From contig AP019005.1 in the NCBI GenBank assembly GCA_003945285.1, positions 1,116,001-1,180,000 on the forward strand: DNA of 64,000 nucleotides, in the 5' to 3' direction. The translations under genes were made by a program, and so were the position numbers. Each line of letters begins with the position of its first letter. The stretch's first letter is position 1. Positions 38,191 through 56,235 of the stretch are shown in pieces. The stretch comes from Hydrogenimonas sp. GTDB lineage: Bacteria; Campylobacterota; Campylobacteria; Campylobacterales; Hydrogenimonadaceae. Below the pieces are notes generated by a model. The model worked only from the letters and a program-made list of their open reading frames with translations. It had not been told where the DNA came from and did no database searches.

Positions 38191-39117
38191 ATGAGACAAA
38201 ACAGCGCCTACATCTACGACCCCGTATATCTCGAGCACGACACCGGAGAGTGGCACCCGGAGTCGCCGCGGCGGCTTTTGGCCGTCGAAAGGGCCGTGAG
38301 CGGTCTGAAGCCACGGCTGTTGCAGCTTTCGCCCATCCGCGTCTCTGAAAAGCTGCTGCTCCGGGTCCATACACCCGAACATATCGAAGCGGTACGGCTC
38401 GCCTGCGAAGCGGAAGAGCCCATCGATGCCGATACCGTCTGCGTACGCCGCTCTTGGGATGCGGCCCTGACCGCGGCAGGTGCGGGAATAGTAGCGCTGG
38501 ATGCCGCAAAAGCGGGAAAGATCGACCGCGCATTCTGCGCCGTAAGGCCGCCGGGCCATCACGCCACACGTAACCGGTCGATGGGCTTCTGCCTCTTCAA
38601 CAATATCGCCGTAGCCGCCAGATACGCCCAGTCTATCGGCTACGAAAAGGTAGCGATCGTCGATTTCGACGTCCACCACGGCAACGGCACACAGGATATC
38701 TTCTACGACGACGGATCGGTTCTCTACCTCTCGACCCACCAATACCCAGCCTACCCCGGCACGGGCCTCTCCACCGAACGGGGCATAGGCAGAGGCGAAG
38801 GAACCACATTCAACTTCCCCTTCCCTCCCGGCAGCGGAGATAAGGAGCTAATCCCGGTCTATACCGAAAAGCTTCCCGTCATCCTTGATGATTTCAAACC
38901 CGACATCATCCTCGTCTCCGCCGGCTACGACCTCCACAAAGCCGACCCGCTTGCCCAGCTCGAAGTAACCACCGAAGGTATACGCACCATAGTCCGGGCC
39001 ATACTAAATACCGCAAAAACACTACCGGTTCTCTTTTTTCTCGAAGGGGGCTACAATGTCGAGGCGCTGGGAGAGAGTGTGTTTGTGACGATTGAAGAGA
39101 TGTTGGGCGGGGAATAA
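38191..39117 (+). CDS. Histone-deacetylase-family (AcuC-like) zinc deacetylase
   Basis: This 308-residue arginase/deacetylase-fold enzyme has RPPGHHATRNRSMGFC and the zinc/catalytic motif VDFDVHHGNGTQDIF. STHQYPAYPGTG and VSAGYDLHKADPL complete the site. Bacterial members deacetylate acetyl-lysine or polyamines; AcuC is linked to acetyl-CoA synthetase control and acetoin use. Its position after lipA and beside an acetyl-CoA-forming dehydrogenase fits such a role by context only. I chose the ATG at 38191, after the lipA stop. Confidence 0.85.
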   Translation: MRQNSAYIYDPVYLEHDTGEWHPESPRRLLAVERAVSGLKPRLLQLSPIRVSEKLLLRVHTPEHIEAVRLACEAEEPIDADTVCVRRSWDAALTAAGAGIVALDAAKAGKIDRAFCAVRPPGHHATRNRSMGFCLFNNIAVAARYAQSIGYEKVAIVDFDVHHGNGTQDIFYDDGSVLYLSTHQYPAYPGTGLSTERGIGRGEGTTFNFPFPPGSGDKELIPVYTEKLPVILDDFKPDIILVSAGYDLHKADPLAQLEVTTEGIRTIVRAILNTAKTLPVLFFLEGGYNVEALGESVFVTIEEMLGGE

Positions 39118-39452
39118 GCAGGGGATATTCTCAACTCCTCTCTTTCTAAAAATTTATCGTTAGATGACCGAAATTCTTCTAAAAGCAGCCTGTCCCCGTA
39201 TAGCGGCGTTAACGCCAGAAAAACACTTTTAGCAGACAGAGTGTTCTATTAATGGATATATCCCGGCTAAAAGGACATTGGATTTCTTGTAATTGTAAGC
39301 TTTTTCAGACAAAAGATTTCAAGAATTATCATAATTAAATATTTTTGAAAAATTAACGGACATTATTGTGTACTGTTAATACTGGATTTTAATGGTGATG
39401 ACGCTATAATGTTCCTTGAATAAATAGATGGGCGTAAAGAAAGGAGGGTATG
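39118..39452. other. AT-rich intergenic boundary of the island
   Basis: GC falls sharply after the deacetylase stop. Visible items are a GTTAGAT (integron core-site-like) at 39159-39165, a palindrome GGCGTTAACGCC at 39205-39216, and an imperfect AACACT...AGTGTT hairpin. A TATAAT at about 39401-39406 suits a promoter for the TIR gene. No gene is evident. Confidence 0.4.
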
Positions 39453-39947
39453 ATGGCACGAAAAGCATTTTATAGTTTTCACTATAAGCCAGATAACTGG
39501 CGGGCTTCACAAGTCAGAAACATGGGGGTTGTGGAAGGCAATAGGCCCGTTAGTGACAACGATTGGGAAACAATCAAAAAAGGCGGTGATGCAGCCATAA
39601 AGAAATGGATAGACGGGCAGCTAAACGGAAAATCTGTAGCAATAGTTTTAATTGGTGAAAAAACCGCTGGGCGCAAGTGGATCAAATATGAAATCAAAAA
39701 AGCTTGGGAAGATGGCAAGGGTATATTAGGAGTCTATATACATAATTTAAAAGACAAAGATGGCAACCAATCGTCAAAGGGGAGAAACCCATTTGATGAT
39801 TTCAATATTAATGGGGTATCGCTTGCAAAAATAGTAAAAGCATATGATCCACCATTTTCCACAAGTAAATATGTATATGATCATATAAAGGAGAATTTAG
39901 CGGATTGGATAGAAGAGGCCATAAAAATAAGGGGTAATTATGGGTAA
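39453..39947 (+). CDS. TIR-like (DUF1863/ThsB-type) domain protein
   Basis: This ~164-residue protein is one domain, with KAFYSFHYKPDNWRASQVRN at its start. VAIVLIGEKTAGRKWIKYEI and GVYIHNLKDKDG follow, the pattern of the ThsB/MTH538-like TIR family. In Thoeris systems such TIR proteins sense phage and make an NAD-derived signal that activates an effector. It has a strong AAGGAGGG site before the second ATG of an ATGATG pair. It overlaps the following membrane-protein gene by 8 bp, indicating a two-gene unit. No ThsA (Sir2 or Macro) gene is present. Confidence 0.8.
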   Translation: MARKAFYSFHYKPDNWRASQVRNMGVVEGNRPVSDNDWETIKKGGDAAIKKWIDGQLNGKSVAIVLIGEKTAGRKWIKYEIKKAWEDGKGILGVYIHNLKDKDGNQSSKGRNPFDDFNINGVSLAKIVKAYDPPFSTSKYVYDHIKENLADWIEEAIKIRGNYG

Positions 39948-40392
39948 TTTAGGTCATGGTGCTACGTCACTTGACGAATCGTCGCCTTCTGTTCAAGCGC
40001 ATCTCGGTATTTTGCAAGGTGTGATACAACGCATGGCTGCAAACAGCAGTCAATGCAAAGCTTGGTGTATTACTATTGTGTCGGCAATTCTTGTAATTGT
40101 CGCCGATAAAAGCAAGCCTGATTATGCTTGGATAGCATTGTTTCCAACAATATTGTTTTTGGCCCTGGATTCCTATTATTTAGCCTTAGAGAAAGGCTTT
40201 AGGGAGTCATATAATATATTTGTTTCTAAAATTCATGGAAATAATTTATCTCCAAATGATCTGTATTCGGTAAGGCCTTCGGGTGATGTGAATAAACACC
40301 AGATTGACTCTTTGAAATCCTTTTCTATATGGGGGTTTTATGGTGGAGTTACCTTGCTATTAGTGCTAGCCAGGTATGTAGTTCTAAAATGA
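39940..40392 (+). CDS. Small membrane protein, putative effector partner of the TIR protein
   Basis: This 150-residue protein has a helical N-terminus (VQAHLGILQGVIQRMAANSS), and two adjacent membrane helices follow (CITIVSAILVIVA, ALFPTILFLALDSYYLAL). An amphipathic linker and a third C-terminal helix (WGFYGGVTLLLVLARYVVL) complete it. The layout recalls SLATT-type 2TM effectors of nucleotide-signal systems, but I cannot prove membership. It overlaps the TIR gene by 8 bp and lies directly before an attC-like site. It would plausibly perturb the membrane on TIR signalling; that is inference. Confidence 0.65.
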   Translation: MGNLGHGATSLDESSPSVQAHLGILQGVIQRMAANSSQCKAWCITIVSAILVIVADKSKPDYAWIALFPTILFLALDSYYLALEKGFRESYNIFVSKIHGNNLSPNDLYSVRPSGDVNKHQIDSLKSFSIWGFYGGVTLLLVLARYVVLK

Positions 40393-40399
40393 ATATATC

Positions 40400-40471
40400 G
40401 CCCAACAAGGCGCTGCACCTGACCGCTATTCCGCTGCGCTCCATAGCGGCCGGTGAGCTTAGTCGTTATCT
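40400..40471 (+). other. attC-like integron recombination site 1
   Basis: The site starts with inverse-core-like GCCCAAC and ends at GTTATCT. Between them lie complementary arms GCTGCACC / GGTGAGC and CCGCTAT / ATAGCGG around a short loop. This is the arm order and extrahelical-base style of cassette attC sites. It begins eight bases after the stop of the membrane-protein gene, the normal position in a gene cassette. The core site is degenerate at two positions. Confidence 0.65.
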
Positions 40472-40488
40472 CGGACGCTGTGCGTCCG

Positions 40489-40622
40489 AGATAACGGGGC
40501 CGCGGGCTGAACATTCGCTTGTTATCTGACGCTTCGCACCAGATAACAAGCGGATGTACCGAGCAACCCTCAAAAAATTAAAATTTTTAGATGACCGTCG
40601 GTGACCCACGGCCCCGTTAGCT
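40489..40622 (+). other. Long attC-like inverted structure 2 (orf-less cassette end)
   Basis: The left arm GATAACGGGGCCGCGGG pairs with the right arm CCCACGGCCCCGTTAGC, with AAC and GTT at the expected core positions. Inside is a 13-bp hairpin (CGCTTGTTATCTG / CAGATAACAAGCG). Just outside the left arm, a further perfect hairpin spans 40466-40494. The next cassette gene starts ~35 bp downstream. No gene fits between structures 1 and 2. Confidence 0.5.
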
Positions 40623-40656
40623 TTACATAAAAATCTAGTAAAAAAGGAATAAGAAA

Positions 40657-41247
40657 ATGGCAATTATAGAAACTAGTAGTTTAATATATTGGAATTATTT
40701 TTTAGCACTTGAAGCTGATATAGAAAAATTAGCTAGGTATGTCGAATTTACAAATGAAAATTTCAATACTTATTCAATAGAATTAGCTCATCTTTTATTA
40801 GCAATTTCATCTGAAGTTGATGTTGTAGCACGTCAACTTTGTAATAACTTAGAAAGTTCATCAACTGCTGAAAATATTGGAGATTATAAAAATATAATTA
40901 AACGACATATATTGAATATAGCAACTGAAACAATCACTATACCACGCTATGGTTTAACATTAAAACCTTGGCAGAATTGGGCTAGTGATGAATCTCCTGA
41001 TTGGTGGAAAGATCATAATAAAGTTAAACACTCAAGAAATGAACACTTTCAAAAAGCAAATTTATCAAATGTGCTTAATGCTATGTCAGGACTCTTTTTA
41101 CTAGTTCTTCACTATTATCAAAATACAATAGATGAAAGGAGAATTGAACCACCACCAACAATATTTACACCGGAAAACTCTTTAGCAAGTGTATGCCCAA
41201 CGGCTGGTGGTAGAATGGCACTATTTTTTACAGAGCCGAACAGCTAA
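40657..41247 (+). CDS. Cassette-encoded protein, possibly HEPN-like
   Basis: This 196-residue, AT-rich, all-helical-looking protein has no signal peptide. The segment DWWKDHNKVKHSRNEHFQKA followed by hydrophobic NAMSGLFLLVLHYYQ resembles a widespread family of HEPN-like proteins, though the canonical Rx4-6H motif is not clear. The TAA stop lies within the left core of an attC-like site, a hallmark of cassette genes. The function is unknown; defence or RNA-related roles are only suggested by context. Confidence 0.55.
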   Translation: MAIIETSSLIYWNYFLALEADIEKLARYVEFTNENFNTYSIELAHLLLAISSEVDVVARQLCNNLESSSTAENIGDYKNIIKRHILNIATETITIPRYGLTLKPWQNWASDESPDWWKDHNKVKHSRNEHFQKANLSNVLNAMSGLFLLVLHYYQNTIDERRIEPPPTIFTPENSLASVCPTAGGRMALFFTEPNS

Positions 41248-41309
41248 CAAAACAGAGTAGCCAATAAATTACCTAGCGGCAACTTATTGGCTATTTTTAA
41301 CCGTTAGAA
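41242..41309 (+). other. attC-like integron recombination site 3
   Basis: The site runs from GCTAAC to GTTAG, with arms TAGCCAATAA / TTATTGGCTA and a loop between. The right arm is followed by TTTTT, so the structure could also act as, or simply be, a Rho-independent terminator. The paired CTAAC/GTTAG ends and the overlap with the stop codon favour attC. Confidence 0.5.
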
Positions 41310-41324
41310 GACTAAGGAAATATA

Positions 41325-41429
41325 TTGATATACTCAACAGAACCAACAGATTGGAGCGATCTTCAAGATAAGGTTTCCTCGATACTAGATGTTTGCGAGA
41401 AGCCCCGGAGAAGCCCCGGGGTCTGGTGA
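41325..41429 (+). pseudogene. Truncated cassette gene (N-terminal 25 or so residues)
   Basis: A TTG with an AAGGAA site opens IYSTEPTDWSDLQDKVSSIL, then the frame runs into a repeat and stops at 41427-41429. The opening resembles the N-terminus of a restriction-endonuclease-like family often found in islands; this is from memory and uncertain. It follows the third attC-like site, so it would be the last cassette of the array, cut off by the repeat that begins near 41405. Confidence 0.4.
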
Positions 41430-41518
41430 TAATAATAACTATGGCACATCCTTTTTTCTGTCAGGTCTTCATGAAGCTTGGCGCTTGGCGCAGGTCGGCT
41501 TATGTTATTGTTATCACC
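41425..41518. repeat. 94-bp inverted-repeat element with GGTGATAATAATAAC ends
   Basis: GGTGATAATAATAAC at the left and GTTATTGTTATCACC at the right are inverted with one mismatch. The left end continues the GGGTCTGGTGATAA motif that begins the ~150-bp repeats at 43110-43640 and 51036. The interior differs from those. Between this element and 41709 I see only a short open stretch (41589-41694) without a start codon. Confidence 0.6.
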
Positions 41519-41708: not shown

Positions 41709-42971
41709 TTAATGGATTTTAGGTATTTTTTCAATCACTCTAACAATGCCATCTATTACGGTTTTATAGACATGTTCATCAATCACTTTTTCATCATCGC
41801 CATCTTCATGGTGACCGAAAAGTCTTTCACTAAGCTGACGTTTTAATTCCTGTCTTTGGTCTTCTTTGAGAGAACTAATAAATGGATCAAATGCTTTAAT
41901 CTCTAAAGCAAACCAACGTGCCCGCTTTTCATTGTTTCTATGTTTGGTTGATTGCTGCGAAGCATATGCCGCACCATATAACATCACACCTGTTAGTGAA
42001 AATGCAGTAACAATTTTTATCCAAAATCCTTCTGCTCCAAAATGGCAAAAATCAAAACTGCCAGCATTGCAAAAATAGACAAAAGCCAACCATAATACAG
42101 TTGTAACAATAAACCCTATTGCAATCCATCTCCATGTATTGGCCTGCTTCATCTCTTTATCGGCGCTCTTTATGTAGCCTGCCCCAACACTGTCTCCAGC
42201 TGTCAACTCATAGAGTTCAAGAATTGCTTTATGTTTTGCATCTGCATCTTTGATTATTGCTGATATTTCTTCTTCAAAAGCGGATTGATGACTCTTTAGG
42301 GTTTCTTCGGATTTATCAATAACTTCTTGTGTTTGACTTGCAGCTTGCTTATCAACTTTTTCTCGCCAAGCTGCATAGTCAGTATTACGACGTTCCTGGG
42401 CTTCAGAAAATTGACTTTGCCATTGTGATATCAAGGTATCCGTTTCGTTTTTTCGAGCTTCTATTTGTCGTTCGAGTTTTTGAAGTTTTTGTTCGCAGTC
42501 AGCAACTTCTCCTGATAGTGATTTAAGTTCATTCTGCAATGTGTCCTTTTGGGAAACAATTGTTTTCGAGAACTCATCAACAAGTTCTTCAGCTTTCCGA
42601 AATGGCTTGCTAAAACGCATCTTTTTAGAAATAGCAAAAAGCAAAGAAAGGGGTGTAAGCAGATTTGTTAAATGGTCATTTGCTCTAATCAAGTGGGCTG
42701 GATTTCTGTTCGATACATAATCAGTAACTTGATTCCAAATATTTGCTTGCCTTAAGCCATCATTAAGATTATCAAGCTGATTCATTGGTACCAATTCACT
42801 ATCAAGACCTTTTAAAACCTCTTGATACATGGCTATAATTTTTAAGAATCGCCTACGCTCAATAGCTTCTTGCTCTCCAATATCTTCAAACTCTTTTGAG
42901 ACACTTTCTTCAAGCTGTCTTAACGTCTCATGTATCGGATGCTCCTCAAACTTTTGCTGCCAGCGATTCAT
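41709..42971 (-). CDS. Coiled-coil membrane protein of unknown function
   Basis: This 420-residue protein has an N-terminal helical region and a long coiled coil (about residues 130-250, e.g. LSGEVADCEQKLQKLERQIE). Two membrane helices follow (WIAIGFIVTTVLWLAFVYF and FWIKIVTAFSLTGVMLYGAA). The ~100-residue cytoplasmic C-terminus contains KAFDPFISSLKEDQRQELKR and RLFGHHEDGDD. It is AT-rich like the island and lies opposite in strand to its neighbours. The architecture would suit a membrane-anchored sensor or effector, but no family is recognised. Confidence 0.65.
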   Translation of the reverse strand: MNRWQQKFEEHPIHETLRQLEESVSKEFEDIGEQEAIERRRFLKIIAMYQEVLKGLDSELVPMNQLDNLNDGLRQANIWNQVTDYVSNRNPAHLIRANDHLTNLLTPLSLLFAISKKMRFSKPFRKAEELVDEFSKTIVSQKDTLQNELKSLSGEVADCEQKLQKLERQIEARKNETDTLISQWQSQFSEAQERRNTDYAAWREKVDKQAASQTQEVIDKSEETLKSHQSAFEEEISAIIKDADAKHKAILELYELTAGDSVGAGYIKSADKEMKQANTWRWIAIGFIVTTVLWLAFVYFCNAGSFDFCHFGAEGFWIKIVTAFSLTGVMLYGAAYASQQSTKHRNNEKRARWFALEIKAFDPFISSLKEDQRQELKRQLSERLFGHHEDGDDEKVIDEHVYKTVIDGIVRVIEKIPKIH

Positions 42972-43109: not shown

Positions 43110-43637
43110 TACGGGGTCTGAAAGGCCTACGGGGTCTGGTGATAATAATAACACCACCCCTTCCTTCTCTTTATTGCACCACTCATTACCGGCTAATCTG
43201 CGCAACCCTATTCCGGGCATATGGTGTTTATTGATAGCTTTAATTTGGCCGGTAATAGTACATCTGTTCCACAACTTTTCAAATTACACCCCTGTGAGTG
43301 AATCTCCACTTTTATGATATTTTTTTTCATAGAGGCATAGGGGCCTGGTGATAACAATAACCCCACCCCCTCCTTCTCTTTATTGTCCACTCATTAACGG
43401 CAAATCTACGCAATCCTATACCGGGCATATGGTGTTTATTGATAACATAACTTTGGCTGGTAATAGTACATCTGGAGCCTACGGGGTCTGGTGATAACAA
43501 TAACACCACCCCTTCCTTCTCTTTAATTGTACTATTCATTACCGGCTAATCTGCGCAACCCTATCCCGGGTATATGGTGTTTATTGATAGCTTTAATTTG
43601 GCCGGTAATAGTACATCTGTTCCACAACTTTTCAGTA
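43110..43637. repeat. Three tandem-like copies of a ~150-bp island repeat
   Basis: Units begin near 43120, 43345 and 43477 with GGGTCTGGTGATAA(C/T)AATAAC (first bases vary). They contain CCTTCTCTTTATTG and GGGCATATGGTGTTTATTGAT and end near GGTAATAGTACATCTG. Inside each, ATTACCGGC pairs with GCCGGTAAT; it is less perfect in the middle unit. A fourth full copy is at 51036-51180. The REP-like CCTGTGAGTGAATCTCCAC sequence separates units one and two at about 43285. The stretch 42972-43109 holds nothing I can name. Confidence 0.75.
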
Positions 43638-43797: not shown

Positions 43798-44402
43798 TTA
43801 AATCTTTTTTGCCATCCCTCTTTTCGTCCTGTTCGTCGCTACGGCGGTTAACGGGTCTTCGGGCCAGTAGTGTTTGGGGTAGCGGCCTCGCATCTCTTTT
43901 CTTATGTCGTTGTAGGCGTTTCGCCAGAAGGTTTTCAGGTTTTTGGTGACGGCCAGGGGGCGACCGGCGGGTGAGAGCAGATGCAGCGTGAGTGCCACCT
44001 TTGCGTCCATGATTTCCGGGCTCTTTTGCCAGCCGAACAGCTCCTGCAGCCTTACCGGAAGAACGGGGTTTTCGGGGTCGCTGTAGTCGATGGAGATTTT
44101 GGATCCGCTTGGGACCTCTATACGCTCAGGGGCGAGCAGGTCAAGTGACTGCAGTCTCTGCCACTCGAGCAGGCCGGTGAGGATGGCGTACATATCTAGT
44201 TTTTGCAGCTCTTTTAGACTCTTCATTCCCCTGATATAGGGCAGCAGCCAACTATGCAGAGTTTCAAGAAGCGCTTCGTCGCTTAGATCGGGAAAATCTT
44301 CACTCCTATGGCGACGGGCAAACTCTACACGTTTGCGGAGAGTGAGGCTTTTTTTGTCCCACGGAAGAGAACCGAGCCCCTTTTGCGCCATCGCTTTTAA
44401 AA
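43798..44402 (-). pseudogene. Duplicated 3' end of hrpB
   Basis: This encodes 196 residues nearly identical to the C-terminus of full-length HrpB (53740-56235); I count eight substitutions by eye. The frame is open to the stop but lacks the helicase motor. A Met sits where the full gene has Val. Similarity continues past the stop to about 43771. At the other end it breaks at 44402 where a REP-like sequence begins. It is thus a fragment, not an independent gene. Confidence 0.85.
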
Positions 44403-44855: not shown

Positions 44856-47800
44856 ATGCTAAAAATAAGATGCTTCAAACCTCGCCAATACCTCGCCCCG
44901 TTATATTCCAAGCAGTCTATTGCTCGTTCCGATCTTGAAAAATTTGAAAACACTCTTCAAGATTATCTGGAGAAAACAAAACGGCAGTTGGCGGCTCGGC
45001 AAAGTGAGCCGAATATCGTCTCCAATGCACTCAAGCCGTTTTTCGAATCCCTGGGTTATGTGGCACAGAGCCACTCGCAAAAAGGTCAGAGCGGTATAGA
45101 TTTGGCTTTGATCCAGGAGGGTGAGCCTGCGGTCATTATCGAAGCGAAGGCTCCCGGCTCTCCTGGGATGATTGCTCTCGGAGATATCAACCGAAAAGCC
45201 TTTCATGAGGCTGTGCTCTATTTTATGCGGGAGCGGGTACGGGGCAATCGGTCGATTTACCACATCATCATCACCGACTTCTACCGATGGTTCGTCTTCG
45301 ATGCCAAAGAGTTTGAGCGGCTTTTTTGGCAAAACAAAAGAGTCAGGAAGATTTTCGAAAGCGTCAAAAATCCTTCCGTTTTAGGAAACAGGACGGAGGA
45401 TTTCTATCAGCTACTCTCCGAAGAGATCGCATCCATGCAGGAAAATCTTATAGAGGATCGGGAGATCGAGGCAGCCTGCTTCGATCTGAAAGAGCCGAGA
45501 AACGAAAAGCAAAACGCCGCTCTGTACAAACTCTTCTCCAAAGAGACGATCTTAAAGAGTTTCAATCCAAACGACGCCAATAACCTCAATAAAGAGTTCT
45601 ACAACGAGTTACTCTACATCATGGGGCTCGAAGAGCGCAAAGAGGGAGGCAAAAAGATCATCTCCCGGAGCCGGAATCCCCACATGGCCTCTCTGTATGA
45701 AAATACGACTCGCAATCTCGAATACGCCGGATACCCCACCGATTTTGAAACCGTACTGCGGCTCAACATCATCTGGACCAACCGGATTTTGTTCTTGAAG
45801 CTTCTGGAGGCACAGCTTCTGCGGTGGAACGGCGGCGAAGAGCGCTACAGATTTCTCAATATCCGCACCATTGAAGATTTCGACCGCCTGAAGATCTTCT
45901 TTTTCGATATTCTCGCCCGTCCCCAGGAGGAGAGGGGCCACAAGGAGTACCCGCAGATTCCCTATCTCAACTCTTCGCTCTTTGAAATCTCACCTGTGGA
46001 GAAGCGCTATATTGATATATCCACCCTCGAAGACCACTGCGAACTGCCCTATTACCCAAAGACGGTCCTCAAAGACGCAAGTGGAAGACGAAGAGATGGT
46101 ACTGTCGATATGCTTCAGTACCTCTTCGAGTTTCTCGATGCCTACGACTTCGCAAGCGAAGGGGGCGAAGAGATTGTCGCGCAGAACAAGACGCTTATCA
46201 ATGCCGCGGTACTGGGGCTGATCTTCGAAAAGCTCAACGGCTATCGTGAGGGGAGCTACTACACGCCGAGCTTTGTGACGATGTATATGTCCAGGGAGAC
46301 GATCGAAAAGGCCGTCATAGAGAAATTCAACCACCTGAAGGGATGGTCATGCAAGAATCTGGATGAGCTTGACGAGAAAATCGAGGACAAAAAAGAGGCC
46401 AACGAGATTATCAACAGTTTGACGATCTGCGATCCGGCGGTGGGAAGCGGGCATTTCCTCGTCTCCGCACTCAACACGATTCTCGAGATCAAAAGCAGGC
46501 TGCGCATTCTTTTCGATGCCGAGGGACGGCGGATCAAAGACTATACACTGGAAGTGAAAAACGACGAACTGCTCACCAGAGATGACGAGGGGGAGCTCTT
46601 TGGGTATCGAAGCCATTCGAGGGAAAAGGGGCGGATCCAAAAAGCCATTTTCGAAGAGAAAAAAAAGATCATCGAAAATTCGCTCTTTGGTGTCGATATC
46701 AATCCCAACGCCGCGCAGATCGCGCGGCTGCGTCTCTGGATCGAGCTGCTCAAGCACAGTTATTACGACCACAACGGTCGCTTGGTGACGATGCCCAATA
46801 TCGACATCAACATCAAAGTGGGCAACTCACTAGTGAGCCGGTACGGGCTGCACGACGAGATCACGATCCCCAATATCCGCCACAAGATCGAGGAGTACAA
46901 AGCGTTGGTGCGCGAATATAAAGAGGGGGCCTTCGAGACCACCAAGGCGCAGATGCAGCAGGTCATCGAGGAGATCAAGGCGATGTTCGGTCTGACGCTT
47001 CAGGAGCAGTGGAAGCAGACGAAACGCTACAACAAGCTTCTTTACGAATATGTCAAGGAGTTCGGGTTGGAAGGGCTGAGCCTCGAGATGCAGTTGGACG
47101 CTTTGAAGGCCGGCTACGGGAAGCATGGACGCCTCTTCGGCGATGAAATCGGCGCACAAGGGATCAAAGAGCGTGAAAAGATGCTCAAACAGCTCAAAGA
47201 TGCCCACGCCCAGATCGAAGAGATCCGAGCGGGATACATCTATGAAAACGCCTTCGAGTGGCGCTTCGAGTTTCCCGAGGTCTTGGATGAAGAGGGGAAT
47301 TTTGTGGGGTTTGATCTAATTATCGGCAATCCACCCTATTTCAATATCGATGTGTTCGGTGGCGGTTCCGCGATGTTGAAATACTTGCCTGAACACTATC
47401 CAGAAATCTACATGGATAAAAGCGATATTCTCTTCTATTTTATCGAACGAGGCGCGAGACTGAGTACTTCGCAGGTAGCCTACATCATCTCCAACGCCAT
47501 GCTCTATTCGGCAAAAGCGAAAAAACTGAGAAATTTTATCTTGCAAGAGGTGCCGGTCCGGAAAGTGGTCAATTTCGAACGTTTCAAGGTCTTTGATGAA
47601 GCCGATATCACCTCGATGATACTCTTTTTGGAAAAAGGGTACAAAGGACCGGCCAAAGCGCTCGTTTTCAGCGGAAGTGACTATACGCAATCCGAAATAC
47701 TAAATAGCCTCGAAGAGGAGTCGAACTATTTTGATGTACATTTAAAAGAAGATGCCCCCTTCGCACTCATCGATACCAAGATCGCGAATCTAAATGAAAA

Positions 47801-48689
47801 GATCGATGGGGCACATCCCAAACTTGGTGATCTTGTTCATGTTGGAAAGGGTATGGAAACTGCCGCCAACAGAGTCTATACATTTACCCAAATCCCTCCG
47901 GATATGGATCTGGGTCTCTTCAAGAAAAAGATGAGCGGCGATATCATCCGAAAATATATCCACGATCCGGTGAAGGAGTATCTACTCTATCTGGAAAATT
48001 TCGAGCACTTCGAGGAGTTGCCCGAAAATATCCAGGTTTATCTTTTGACACATAAAGAAAAATTGGCCAATAGGGCAGAAATAAAGAGGAATACCAATAG
48101 ACAATGGTGGAAATATACCTTTCCTATGCACAAAGAGTATTACCAGTATCCAAAAATATGGACCTCCTACCGTGCGAAAGAGAATACCTTCTGCCTTGAT
48201 GAAAGTAATGAATACATCGGCTTGACTAATACCACCGTAATCTTTGGCACGAATGAATCGGTGTATTTAAAATATCTTCTGGCACTTCTGAACTCGGCAT
48301 TGCTCAATTTCCGATACCGATCGATCGGCAAGCAGACCGGAGGGGAAATCTACGAATATTTCGAACATCAGATATCGAAACTTCCCATTCCGAAGATCGG
48401 TAAAGATATGCAAATCCCGTTCATTGACCTTGTCGATCAGATTATCGAAAAGAAAAAAGCCGGGGAAGCCACGGATGAGCCGGAAGGTCGGATCGACCGT
48501 ATGGTTTATGAGTTGTATGGGCTTAATAATGAGGAGATCGAGATTGTTGAAGGGCCTACTGGGTCTGGTGATAACAATATAACAGATGGGAGAATCTCTC
48601 CAGTTATTTCAAATACCCCGAAGATATCAGGCGCATCATCTACACAACCAATATTATCGAATCGGTACATCGCCAGTTTAGAAAGCTGA
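44856..48689 (+). CDS. Type IIG restriction-modification enzyme (Eco57I-like) with altered C-terminus
   Basis: This 1,277-residue fused nuclease-methyltransferase has an N-terminal nuclease-like region with [20 protein letters not shown] (PD-(D/E)xK pattern, D...E-x-K, about residues 80-100). A helical connector follows. The N6-adenine methyltransferase core has motif [18 protein letters not shown] and motif [14 protein letters not shown] TaqI-like target-recognition region comes last ([41 protein letters not shown]). The normal end appears to be near residue 1232 (IEIVEG). The last ~45 residues come from an island repeat and an IS256 remnant. Activity may survive because all core motifs are present. 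Confidence 0.85.
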
Positions 48690-51758: not shown

Positions 51759-51981
51759 TCAAATCCCTGCCCCTTCCCTTTGTTTATCGCACCACTAGGC
51801 GCCGGCTGAAGCATATATAAAATATGCGCAATCTGTGCTGTGTCAATCTATTTTCGTACATGGAGTCAAATCACGCCGGCACCGCCGACTGTTTGGAGCT
51901 TTTGGATGGAGCTTTTGGAGCGTAATAATGCCTTCTTCCAAAGACGGGGGAATGGGAGTTTTGCGATCATATGCGTATGTT

Positions 51982-52010
51982 TTGGCAAATGTGACATTTT
52001 CAGATACAAT
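51982..52010 (+). promoter_or_regulatory. Promoter of the AbiE pair, predicting a leaderless transcript
   Basis: TTGGCA (51982-51987) and TACAAT (52005-52010) are 17 bp apart. The ATG of the antitoxin gene is at 52017, where transcription would begin, so the mRNA would have no or almost no leader. No ribosome-binding site is present before the ATG. Autoregulation by the antitoxin is expected for AbiE systems. The rest of 51759-52016 shows no gene. Confidence 0.6.
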
Positions 52011-52016
52011 ATATCT

Positions 52017-52517
52017 ATGGAAAATATCGAAAATATCAATATTTCAAGCTATATTAAGAACAAGTTAAGGCGACTTCATAAAGATAAACTCTATGACTAT
52101 TCCATTTTTGAGCCGGTCCCTTCAGATAAAAAAGTGGCATTCAGAAAAGCGATTTCACGCCTTGCCAAAGATGGAGTAATCGTTAAAGTCGGCAGCGGCA
52201 AGTTTTACAAAAGAGGATACCGCCGATCAGCGCCCATAGAACCGGTACACATCAAGCCACGCCGAAAAGAGTGGCTCAAATCTGGCAAGGTGCCGGCGGA
52301 TATTCTCAAATACCGACTCTCAAGAAACCTCTTTTGGTCCAACCCCAAAGGGAAAGTGCCGGTAGAAAATGTCATAGTTGCTGTAATTGAGAATGGTGCA
52401 CTGGATGATTTGGACTTCATCCGTTTCTCTTTTGGAGACGATAAGGTCAAAGAGGTCTTTTTGAAACACTTCGATATCCACTCAAAGCCGATGATAAGGA
52501 ATATACTGGATGTCTGA
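52017..52517 (+). CDS. AbiEi-type antitoxin / DUF6088-like regulator
   Basis: This 166-residue protein has an N-terminal winged-helix (SSYIKNKLRRLHKDKLYDYS, AFRKAISRLAKDGVIVKVGS, GKFYKRG). A C-terminal region follows (LFWSNPKGKVPVENVIVAVI, DDLDFIRFSFGDDKVKEVF). In Type IV AbiE systems this partner represses the operon and counters the nucleotidyltransferase toxin. Its last 8 bp overlap the toxin gene. A longer open frame upstream is rejected because the promoter lies inside it. Confidence 0.75.
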   Translation: MENIENINISSYIKNKLRRLHKDKLYDYSIFEPVPSDKKVAFRKAISRLAKDGVIVKVGSGKFYKRGYRRSAPIEPVHIKPRRKEWLKSGKVPADILKYRLSRNLFWSNPKGKVPVENVIVAVIENGALDDLDFIRFSFGDDKVKEVFLKHFDIHSKPMIRNILDV

Positions 52518-53634
52518 CAAAAAACAGCTGCAAGCTTCGATGCCTGCCGCCACTTTTGAGCTTTTGAGTGAAGGTTTTATGCCGATGCCTGAAATGAGCC
52601 GATGGACACTGGTGGGCGGCACGGCACTCGCTATTCATTATCAACACCGGCTATCGGAAGATTTGGATTTCTTTATCAAAAACAGCACGCTTGAGCAGGA
52701 CCGCAGACGCATCGACAGGATGATGCGGCAGTTACAGGATGAGGGATTTGAAGTCAGTAAACTCCATGAGAACGATATCCAAATAGATTTTGAGATTGAC
52801 AGGGTCAAAGTTACTTTCTTTGCCTCAAGTCTCGATATTTTGCGAAAAGACGATATCGCATTTGGGAATGTAGCAGTTGCCGGTATTGAAACCATTAAGG
52901 CAATGAAAATGGATGCCATTTTAAACCATCGCACACTCTCAAGAGATTTTTTTGATATTGCCACTATTATGGAACGGGAGAAACTGACTATCTTTGACCT
53001 GCTTGAGAGTTACCGTCAACACTATACAAAATATCTCTCCGCCGGTCTAGTTGCAGAGCGCTTGAGCAAAAAAGAGCTTGATGCAAACGATCCGGGGCTT
53101 ACTCCAATGCAGCCAAGAACCAAGATAGATATCGTCGGGTTCAGAAAAAAACTTGCCGAACAGATAGAAATAGAAGTCCGGAAAGATACAAAGTGTCTCG
53201 ATACATTGATTTCCGACCCATCTATCATAAAAAACCATTTGGATAGAAAGTTTGGACTCAGCCGAATGAACCTGCCCCAGAAACTGGCTGTTCTGGGGGA
53301 AGACGGGTTGGTGCTTGAAGCACTAAATATCGGTGATTTCGATATCGCTTACAAAGATATTTCCGGTAAAACGCTTCTGGATTACTACCTTGAAGACGAT
53401 GCAATGTTTGCTAAAATCCTTTCCTTTGCCAAAGAGATTCCCGATGAGTGGCTACAGAGTCGCATATTCAAAAGATACGATAAAGACAAACTCATTGCAC
53501 TGGAAAATAGCGTGATAAGCTGTGCCAAAAAGGCAGAGAACTCCAAAGAGAAGATCGAGAGGCTTGCAGCCAGACACAATATTGAGCCAAATGAGCTGCG
53601 GGAGAGGATAGAGGCGAAAGAGAAGATTTTATGA
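52510..53634 (+). CDS. AbiEii-type nucleotidyltransferase toxin
   Basis: This 374-residue protein has the nucleotidyltransferase motif LVGGTALAIHYQHRLSEDLD plus FF (GG-x-A-L ... S-E-D-L-D, about residues 36-57). The third acidic residue is in IQIDFEIDRVKV, and TIKAMKMDAILNHRTLSRDF with FDIATIM completes the DUF1814 core. Its C-terminal half is longer than usual and helical. AbiEii proteins block growth by nucleotide addition to tRNA, giving abortive phage resistance. The antitoxin gene precedes and overlaps it. Confidence 0.82.
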   Translation: MSDKKQLQASMPAATFELLSEGFMPMPEMSRWTLVGGTALAIHYQHRLSEDLDFFIKNSTLEQDRRRIDRMMRQLQDEGFEVSKLHENDIQIDFEIDRVKVTFFASSLDILRKDDIAFGNVAVAGIETIKAMKMDAILNHRTLSRDFFDIATIMEREKLTIFDLLESYRQHYTKYLSAGLVAERLSKKELDANDPGLTPMQPRTKIDIVGFRKKLAEQIEIEVRKDTKCLDTLISDPSIIKNHLDRKFGLSRMNLPQKLAVLGEDGLVLEALNIGDFDIAYKDISGKTLLDYYLEDDAMFAKILSFAKEIPDEWLQSRIFKRYDKDKLIALENSVISCAKKAENSKEKIERLAARHNIEPNELRERIEAKEKIL

Positions 53635-53739: not shown

Positions 53740-56235
53740 TTAAATCTTTTTCGACATACCTTTTTTCGTCCTGTTCGTCGCTACGGCGGTTAACGGGTCT
53801 TCGGGCCAGTAGTGTTTGGGGTAGCGGCCGCGCATCTCTTTTCTTATGTCGTTGTAGGCGTTTTGCCAGAAGGTTTTCAGGTTTTTGGTGACGGCCAGGG
53901 GGCGATTGGCGGGTGAGAGCAGATGCAGCGTGAGCGCCACCTTTGCGTCCATGATTTCCGGGCTCTTTTGCCAGCCGAACAGCTCCTGCAGCTTTACCGG
54001 AAGAACGGGGTTTTCGGGGTCGCTGTAGTCGATGGAGATTTTGGACCCGCTCGGGACCTCTATACGCTCAGGGGCGAGCCGGTCAAGCGACTGCAGTCTC
54101 TGCCACCCGAGCAGACCGGTGAGGATGGCGTACATATCTAGTTTTTGCAGCTCTTTTAGACTCTTTGTTCCCCGGATATAGGGCAGCAGCCAACTATGCA
54201 GAGTTTCAAGAAGCGCTTCGTCGCTTAGATCGGGAAAATCTTCACTCCTATGGCGGCGGGCAAACTCTACACGCTTGCGGAGCGTGAGGCTTTTTTTGTC
54301 CCACGGAAGAGAACCGAGCCCCTTTTGCGCCACCGCTTTTAGCAGTGTCTCGGCTACGAGGTCCGGGTCGGGGTTTTGTAGCGGTTCGCTCTTTATCGTG
54401 ACGGCGCCGAACCGGGTTATGCGGCGGGCATCTATGCGCTCTTTTTCATCGTGCCAGCGCAGATCGTCAAAGGTTTCGAAGCGGTCCGAAAAGAGGGTAT
54501 GCAGATCCTCTTCACTCAGGCGGGCGGCTGAAAATATGGTCGCTTCGGTACCGGTGCCTCCCGCTTCGGCTACGGCTAGCCACGGGGTGCGTATCAAGGA
54601 GTCACTCCCTTTCAGGCGAAGCCCTTTGCCCGATACACTCAGGTATCTATCTCCCTCACCTCTCCATTTGGCTATACGCTCCGGGTAGGCCATTGCCACG
54701 AGAATACCGGCTTTCAGGGGATTTATATCTTCATATTTTTGTATATTAAGCTCTCTCAAAAGCTTCTCTACCGATTTTTTGAACTGTCCGAAGCTTCTCT
54801 CTTCAAGAGTACGGTGAAATGTTTCGAGCGATAAAGAGAGATCACTCTCCCCTCCCAGAGGGGGGCGCTCCTGCAGTAAAACCGCCAGAAGTGCGGCTTC
54901 ATAGCCCAGCCCCATCGTTTTGGCTTTTAAAAGCATATGAGCTATGCGGGGGTGGTGCCCCAGGTTCAACACCTCTTTGCCGTGCGGCGTGAGTGTGCCT
55001 CTCTCATCGGTCATACCGAGCTGACGAAGAAGATCTTCCGCATGGCCGACGGTGTGGGCCGGGGGCGGATCGATCCACTTGAGCTCTTCGGGACGCGCAC
55101 CCCAAGCGGCGAGGCTCATCATCAAAGGTGCGAGGTCGCTTCGCAAAATCTCCGGCTGGGCATATTCGACGAGTCTTCTGTTTTCGTGCCAGAGACGCAC
55201 GCAGATGCCCGGTGCCTCACGTCCGGCCCGTCCGGCCCTCTGTATGGCGGAGTTTTGGCTGATTGGTAGGGTTTTGTAGCGGTTCATCCCCGCAGCGGCA
55301 TCGAAAAAGACGGAGCGCTCTAGTCCCGAATCTATCACGATCCGCACCCCTTCGATAGTGAGGCTGGTTTCGGCGATGTTGGTGCCCAGGACCACTTTGC
55401 GCTTTCCTGCGGGTGCCGGTTCGACGGCCAGGCGCTGAGCCTTCGGCTCCATCGTCCCGTAAAGCGGTGCTATGATGATATTTTGGTCGCTTATCTTTCG
55501 GCGAAGAAGACTTTCGGTACGGCGGATCTCTTTGGCGCCGGGAAGGAAAACGAGAACGTCACCCTCCTCTTTCTCGAGCATTTCCACCGTTTTCAGAGCT
55601 GCCGTGTCGGCAATTCGCTCCGGTGCGGGAAGAGGAGTTTTGATATCGAGGTAGCGGTATTCTACCGGGTGGGTGCGCCCCTCGCCGGTGATGACAGGCA
55701 CTTTTTCGTCTCCCTTACGCAAAAGTTCGGCGACGGCTTCGGTTTGGAGCGTGGCCGACATCACCAGAATCTTCAGATCGTCGCGCAGCAGCTCCTGTGT
55801 CTGCAATGACAGGGCCAGAGAGAGATCGGCATGAATAGAGCGTTCGTGGAATTCGTCGAAAATCAACAGCCCGATATCTTCGAGAGATGGGTCATGAAGA
55901 AGCATCTGCGTCAGCACCCCTTCCGTGACCACTTCGATGCGTGTGGCGGGAGACACCCTCGTCTCCCCGCGCATCCGGTACCCTACCCTTTTTCCGACCT
56001 TTTCGCCTAAGCTCTGTGCCAGCCGCACAGCCGCACCCCGCGCCGCAAGACGCCTCGGCTCGAGCATAACGATCTTCCGGTCTGCCAACCAGGGTTCCTT
56101 GAGCAGTTTCAGCGGTACGACGGTGGTCTTGCCCGCACCGGGCGCCGCCTGCAGCACTACGCGGTCGTTCAGCGACAATTCGTCGAGAAGCCGGGGAATG
56201 ACGGTATGGATGGGAAGTGCGTCTGAGCGATTCAT
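53740..56235 (-). CDS. hrpB: ATP-dependent helicase HrpB (DEAH family)
   Basis: This 831-residue helicase has Walker A LQAAPGAGKTTVVPLKLL, motif II LLIFDEFHERS, motif III LVMSATL, and motif VI AIQRAGRAGREAPG. The HA2-like domain and the HrpB-specific C-terminal region (RYPKHYWPEDPLTAVATNR) follow. HrpB is an RNA/DNA helicase of poorly defined role. I chose the ATG at 56235; eight more in-frame codons lie upstream. Its last ~200 codons are duplicated at 43798-44402, and it closes the island on the right. Confidence 0.9.
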   Translation of the reverse strand: MNRSDALPIHTVIPRLLDELSLNDRVVLQAAPGAGKTTVVPLKLLKEPWLADRKIVMLEPRRLAARGAAVRLAQSLGEKVGKRVGYRMRGETRVSPATRIEVVTEGVLTQMLLHDPSLEDIGLLIFDEFHERSIHADLSLALSLQTQELLRDDLKILVMSATLQTEAVAELLRKGDEKVPVITGEGRTHPVEYRYLDIKTPLPAPERIADTAALKTVEMLEKEEGDVLVFLPGAKEIRRTESLLRRKISDQNIIIAPLYGTMEPKAQRLAVEPAPAGKRKVVLGTNIAETSLTIEGVRIVIDSGLERSVFFDAAAGMNRYKTLPISQNSAIQRAGRAGREAPGICVRLWHENRRLVEYAQPEILRSDLAPLMMSLAAWGARPEELKWIDPPPAHTVGHAEDLLRQLGMTDERGTLTPHGKEVLNLGHHPRIAHMLLKAKTMGLGYEAALLAVLLQERPPLGGESDLSLSLETFHRTLEERSFGQFKKSVEKLLRELNIQKYEDINPLKAGILVAMAYPERIAKWRGEGDRYLSVSGKGLRLKGSDSLIRTPWLAVAEAGGTGTEATIFSAARLSEEDLHTLFSDRFETFDDLRWHDEKERIDARRITRFGAVTIKSEPLQNPDPDLVAETLLKAVAQKGLGSLPWDKKSLTLRKRVEFARRHRSEDFPDLSDEALLETLHSWLLPYIRGTKSLKELQKLDMYAILTGLLGWQRLQSLDRLAPERIEVPSGSKISIDYSDPENPVLPVKLQELFGWQKSPEIMDAKVALTLHLLSPANRPLAVTKNLKTFWQNAYNDIRKEMRGRYPKHYWPEDPLTAVATNRTKKGMSKKI

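Follow-up and report, generated by a model that had tools for sequence, protein, structure and literature searches.

A probable integron platform without an integrase gene, keeping attI and its cassettes, in a Campylobacterota chromosome

The DNA analysed here, a stretch of 64,000 nucleotides that we call the window, lies in a genome of one contig (2,193,435 bases, 2.19 Mb) from the phylum Campylobacterota. Between a histone-deacetylase-family gene and a gene on the minus strand, it carries an array of at least three cassettes and a broken fourth, with the following features (window positions):

ends at 39117: histone-deacetylase-family gene, left neighbour of the array
39209-39427, plus strand: attI region, with the crossover between 39427 (G) and 39428
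39405-39410, plus strand: TATAAT, putative -10 element of the cassette promoter Pc, inside attI
39428-40465, plus strand: gene cassette 1 (TIR gene pair), not in the paralogous locus 1002377-1002592
39450-39947, plus strand: TIR-like gene, ThsB family / PDC-M50B (Pfam and PADLOC)
39940-40392, plus strand: partner gene, PDC-M50A (PADLOC E 3e-30), membrane protein by sequence reading
40400-40471, plus strand: attC1 (90 bits; compensatory changes; relatives on plasmids)
40465-40495, no strand assigned: terminal hairpin of cassette 2, formed between the left-end core and the first R''-like core (z -9.8)
40466-40616, plus strand: cassette 2, ORF-less, 151 bp, of a conserved structured cassette family
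40489-40622, plus strand: attC2, three-way-junction fold (fold z -8.6; consensus fold; second R'' core at 40541-40547)
40617-41303, plus strand: gene cassette 3
40657-41247, plus strand: gene of cassette 3, 196 aa, with conserved E...W...KHxR
41242-41309, plus strand: attC3 (72.7 bits)
41304-41417, plus strand: remnant of a fourth cassette, left end GTTAGAA
41418-41518, no strand assigned: repeat with inverted ends, interrupting the fourth cassette; its family has ends of the Y1-transposase type
41709-42971, minus strand: gene on the right of the array

A preliminary description of this locus had reported three attC-like inverted structures, and all three (attC1, attC2 and attC3) do lie where it placed them; the left end of the array was missed, its limit being the attI crossover, outside the segment 40400-41429 that had been described. 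The gene stops do fall in or just before the left core, as had been said, with TGA at 40390-40392 before attC1 and TAA in the R'' core of attC3, at 41245-41247. What had been listed separately as an ORF-less stretch and a second site is indeed ORF-less, but the two form one 151-bp cassette of a conserved family. The product of the right-hand gene (41709-42971) is a 420-aa protein, by eye of coiled-coil and membrane type, that weakly resembles LeoBC and LeoA (E about 1e-6).

The boundary of cassette 1 is visible by comparison within the same chromosome, where the TIR cassette, and nothing else, is missing from an empty site (1002377-1002592) whose junction falls at G/TT (the slash marks the crossover): genome positions 1002190-1002401 match window positions 39225-39427 and then continue directly into a match to 40465-40657. 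Because the left end of a cassette and its own R'' core are the halves of one attC in the circle, the first has to be the reverse complement of the second. Junctions at G/TT with such a left end are found in all three window cassettes, one of them with a mismatch in GTT. In cassette 1 the left end GATGGGC (GTTGGGC expected) agrees with its R'' core GCCCAAC in 4 of 4 variable bases; GTTATCT in cassette 2 is the reverse complement of AGATAAC, and GTTAGCT in cassette 3 that of AGCTAAC in 7 of 7 bases. The rule also holds in the array at 1002 kb (two cassettes by script, a third by reading), and left end and R'' are mismatched in the first two cassettes of the array at 608 kb. As a less circular test, we used attC sites that covariance models had detected in other genomes, in which the left end and R'' matched fully in 41 of 60 cases; 10,000 shuffles reached at most 12, and a right-end control matched in 6.

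Covariance models of our own making were applied to the attC sites, with no window sequences in the training sets. Model R1 (13 training sites) gave attC3 72.7 bits (E 1.8e-14) and model R2 (seven relatives as training sites) gave attC1 90 bits (E 4e-24), scores that express family membership rather than blind discovery, because similarity to the window sites is how most of the training sites had been found. In the whole genome attC3 was the sole match of R1, and a second model was therefore needed. Among six sequences of the attC1 type, 5 of 18 pairs carry compensatory changes, with a covariation score reached by none of 500 shuffles, and close relatives of attC1 are located on Geoalkalibacter, Citrobacter and Thiolapillus plasmids. 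On the Thiolapillus plasmid pTBH13 (L191), another defence-like cassette consists of a TIR gene and, after it, a caspase-family gene, with an attC1-type attC at the end. When folding was compared with shuffled sequences, site 2 (z -8.6) and site 3 (z -5.2) stood out and site 1 (z -0.7) did not. The bottom strand gives a more stable fold than the top strand in 13 of the 14 sites compared, and attC1 shows attC-like bulged bases. The attC2 proper may be confined to 40541-40622. A scan of the window against Rfam gave no match; an attC scan based on energy only was noisy, missed attC1 and was discarded.

The attI region is 90% identical to the stretch between a divergent intI and the first cassette in a genome of the same genus (G012). 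Wherever the region was available in relatives with intI, AATAAATAG/TT or a close form of it lies upstream of the divergent intI, which was identified by protein family, independently of the attI core. The genome has four copies of the attI core GCTATAATGTTCCTTGAATAAATAG, at 608718, 710854 (on the minus strand and with one mismatch), 1002377 and 1155403, of which the last is that of the window. Homology does not reach equally far to the left in the four copies, which fits separate losses. TATAAT is found in all four and in several intI-linked attI sites; a generic sigma-70 scan did not list the one at 39405-39410 among its promoters. The cassette genes would be transcribed from this putative Pc. 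Because an attI region with a promoter-like TATAAT persists, the locus amounts to more than a set of attC sites alone.

Scanning the GTDB contigs with the attI core returned 94 stretches, nearly all of them, among those listed, in Campylobacterota records. Of 54 fetched copies with at least 1.5 kb of upstream sequence, 20 have intI or an intI remnant upstream, the intI start being about 270 bp away and divergent. Related attI sites are abundant in Campylobacterota, most of them without an adjacent intI. In 80 attI loci, 63 of 65 covariance-model attC matches are downstream and on the same strand (downstream sequence makes up 44% of the bases), and the remaining two read the same sites in reverse. 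One relative (G021) has eight attI copies, and two copies without intI occur in each of two complete genomes (G078 and a Sulfurospirillum diekertiae record). The sequence-level recognition of this attI family across Campylobacterota means that platforms lacking an integrase can be located without recourse to intI or attC. We also observed a second attI-like core, ACAATAAATAG/TTATCA (L013:16825), about 5 kb from the intI-linked attI of G007 (316.8 kb), with an attC after it that conforms to the cassette rule, and a degenerate core, GCTATAATGCTCGTTGAATAGATA/TTAGGCA (L041:7522, genome 1005.5 kb), downstream of the 1002-kb array.

The array had been described as carrying defence genes, and the TIR gene pair of cassette 1 does match a candidate defence system. 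The product of 39450-39947 matches ThsB_TIR in Pfam (E 6e-28) and both ThsB (E 3e-77) and PDC-M50B (E 8e-68) in PADLOC; with M50A and M50B adjacent, the pair corresponds to the PADLOC candidate defence system PDC-M50, a predicted combination of a ThsB-type TIR protein and a partner. The TIR pair may act against phages. The cassette genes differ at each attI copy of the genome; all four are followed by cassette genes, several of them defence-like, and the first genes at the other three encode a Cap12-type TIR protein, a YaaC-family protein and an AAA-TOPRIM protein.

Cassette 2 folds over its whole length into a terminal hairpin and a three-way junction that incorporates the attC. In a consensus of 13 aligned copies, 27 of 57 pairs are compensated, which none of 500 shuffles reached, and the arms of the terminal hairpin vary in sequence among copies while keeping their complementarity. 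The score of the window copy, 158.5 bits, is not independent, because the model was built on an alignment that included this copy and that of the 1002-kb array. The G.T pairs favour the bottom strand, and still do so (16 vs 6 A.C) when the count is limited to pairs that are predicted for both strands; this agrees with the cassette being used as folded DNA of the bottom strand. A full or partial copy is present in all four arrays of the genome and in six further genomes of 100; the fetched loci hold 29 hairpin-led stretches of this architecture, often as the first cassette after attI. A narrow literature search found no description of the family.

The gene of cassette 3 had been called HEPN-like, a label that is unproven: its product has no family match in Pfam, NCBIfam or PADLOC, and a single-sequence structure model was uninformative (pLDDT 38). 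The E...W...KHxR pattern is common to this protein and its relatives in a six-member alignment. Beyond cassette 3, no R'' matching GTTAGAA was found for the fourth cassette (41304-41417), which is cut by a repeat with the core CTGGTGATAAYAATAAC. This core has 12 copies in the genome (at most one mismatch), none of them farther than about 12 kb from one of the four attI loci. In a full element (1004445-1005303), two inverted copies of the repeat flank a Y1_Tnp (IS200-like Y1 transposase) gene, and an attC at 709.3 kb seems to be interrupted by a copy; the repeat family may favour cassette arrays. Within the window the repeat occurs at 41418-41518, 43125-43525 and 51050. Farther to the right, a type IIG restriction-methylation enzyme is encoded near the array at 44856-48689 (PADLOC E 4e-272), and two adjacent genes at 51840-53634 resemble, by eye, an AbiEi/AbiEii-type pair of regulator and nucleotidyltransferase. 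A 600-bp duplication of a helicase gene 3' end (43798-44391 and 53743-54333; proteins 95% identical) brackets the region of the type IIG enzyme and other genes, which gives it the look of an inserted island.

The window contains no IntI, as had been stated, and a search of the whole genome was likewise negative: no match to TIGR02249 rose above the cut-off, and only weak partial matches to other tyrosine recombinases were obtained. Nor were intI remnants found upstream of the four attI copies of the genome. Of the parts of a complete integron, the locus has attI and lacks the intI gene. Among relatives, intI with stops or truncations occurs in four genomes of the same genus (G004, G007, G010 and G012; a contig edge may partly explain truncation on small contigs), and G021 has an intI shred upstream of attI beside one or two of its eight attI copies. 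Two relatives whose genomes are complete have retained the neighbouring deacetylase gene; in both, an nfeD-like gene adjoins it and there is no integron. Because of these two, an ancestral intI at the position of this array is unproven. A search of the window for the nfeD-like gene, meant to set the right-hand limit of the insertion, did not find it. The array had also been thought noteworthy for its phylum. It is not exceptional: intI lies above the family cut-off in 11 of 100 relatives, and integrons and CALINs of Campylobacterota have been published (PMC8618304, PMC10295459), the CALINs in Sulfurovum sp. NBC37-1 and Sulfurimonas autotrophica (PMC10295459).

The empty site, the cassette-end rule and the covariance models support the integrase-less cassette array of the integron type that had been proposed, and we hold it to be highly probable that the locus is an integron platform without its integrase gene, which has kept attI, a probable promoter and cassettes while intI was deleted. 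With IntI present, circular cassettes would have been inserted by recombination of a folded bottom-strand attC with G/TT, cassette 1 entering between attI and cassette 2. The intI gene would then have been deleted, leaving attI, a probable outward Pc and the cassettes, and without IntI the array would be frozen unless an integrase were supplied in trans. Since no intI remnant lies at the locus, deletion of intI, rather than its never having been present here, is something we infer and do not see.

Other readings of the same locus can be weighed against this one. That the hairpins are transcription terminators or unrelated inverted repeats has a negligible chance: although the folding energy of site 1 is ordinary, and site 3 on its minus strand and a short stem inside site 2 come up in a terminator scan, this reading is refuted by the cassette-end rule, the empty site, the covariation, the bottom-strand bulges and the placement of the sites downstream of attI across genomes. 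The cassettes might instead have been inserted off-target by a distant IntI at an ordinary chromosomal site (attG) that was never a platform, an origin that is possible for CALINs (PMC8618304) and that is in keeping with the missing intI remnant and with the two relatives that have no integron beside the deacetylase gene. However, about 220 bp of the left flank are conserved and common to intI-linked sites and three other loci of the genome. As random targets would not share an attI region of about 220 bp, insertion at an attG is strongly disfavoured, and we judge it very improbable.

A working integron that is spread out over several integrase-less attI platforms, with IntI supplied in trans from a plasmid, a phage or incoming DNA, would have the same anatomy as a platform that lost its integrase, and would differ only in that the platforms are still being used. 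The four attI copies in this genome and the eight in G021, the complete genomes with two attI copies and no intI, and the different cassettes at each copy are all consistent with it, and cassettes of CALINs can be mobilised in trans (PMC12444791). Nevertheless, no source of integrase was found in the genome, and the broken fourth cassette and the mutated left junction of cassette 1 fit decay, so that we consider supply in trans unlikely. Equally doubtful is the broader notion that Campylobacterota genomes carry many docking sites of attI and promoter, with defence and structured ORF-less cassettes and with integrases acting in trans, the integron being distributed and not dead. On the preferred reading, a platform that has lost its integrase gene, defence-type cassettes stay fixed in the chromosome after the recombinase has gone. 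The question raised is why there are four platforms in this one genome, each with a copy of the same structured ORF-less cassette.

CALINs and the decay of integrases have already been described (PMC8618304, PMC9024848, PMC12444791), and loss of intI is among the proposed origins of CALINs (PMC8618304). The locus resembles a CALIN in having at least two attC sites with R and L boxes, folded-strand structure and cassettes, and no intI nearby; it differs in that an attI with a probable promoter is kept, at four such platforms in one genome. In the sedentary chromosomal integrons of Xanthomonas with inactivated intI, the integrase is likewise lost or broken and the cassette arrays are kept and stable (PMC12444791), but there the intI locus is single and conserved, downstream of ilvD, whereas here copies of attI lie at four loci. 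Integrons with anti-phage cassettes, such as those of Vibrio cholerae cited in PMC12444791, are similar in encoding defence-like proteins (TIR, Cap12-type TIR, AAA-TOPRIM); the present arrays are short, integrase-less and from Campylobacterota, and their proteins are assigned to defence by similarity. Cassette 2 differs from known ORF-less cassettes in belonging to a family of mostly about 150 bp that folds over its whole length with compensatory changes across genera. The attI sites outside class 1 integrons are poorly described (PMC9024848), and the less familiar part of the system is the repeated orphan attI platforms together with the structured ORF-less cassette. Because attI is kept at four loci of an integrase-less genome, along with such a cassette, we regard the locus as a variant and not as a plain further example of these known systems.
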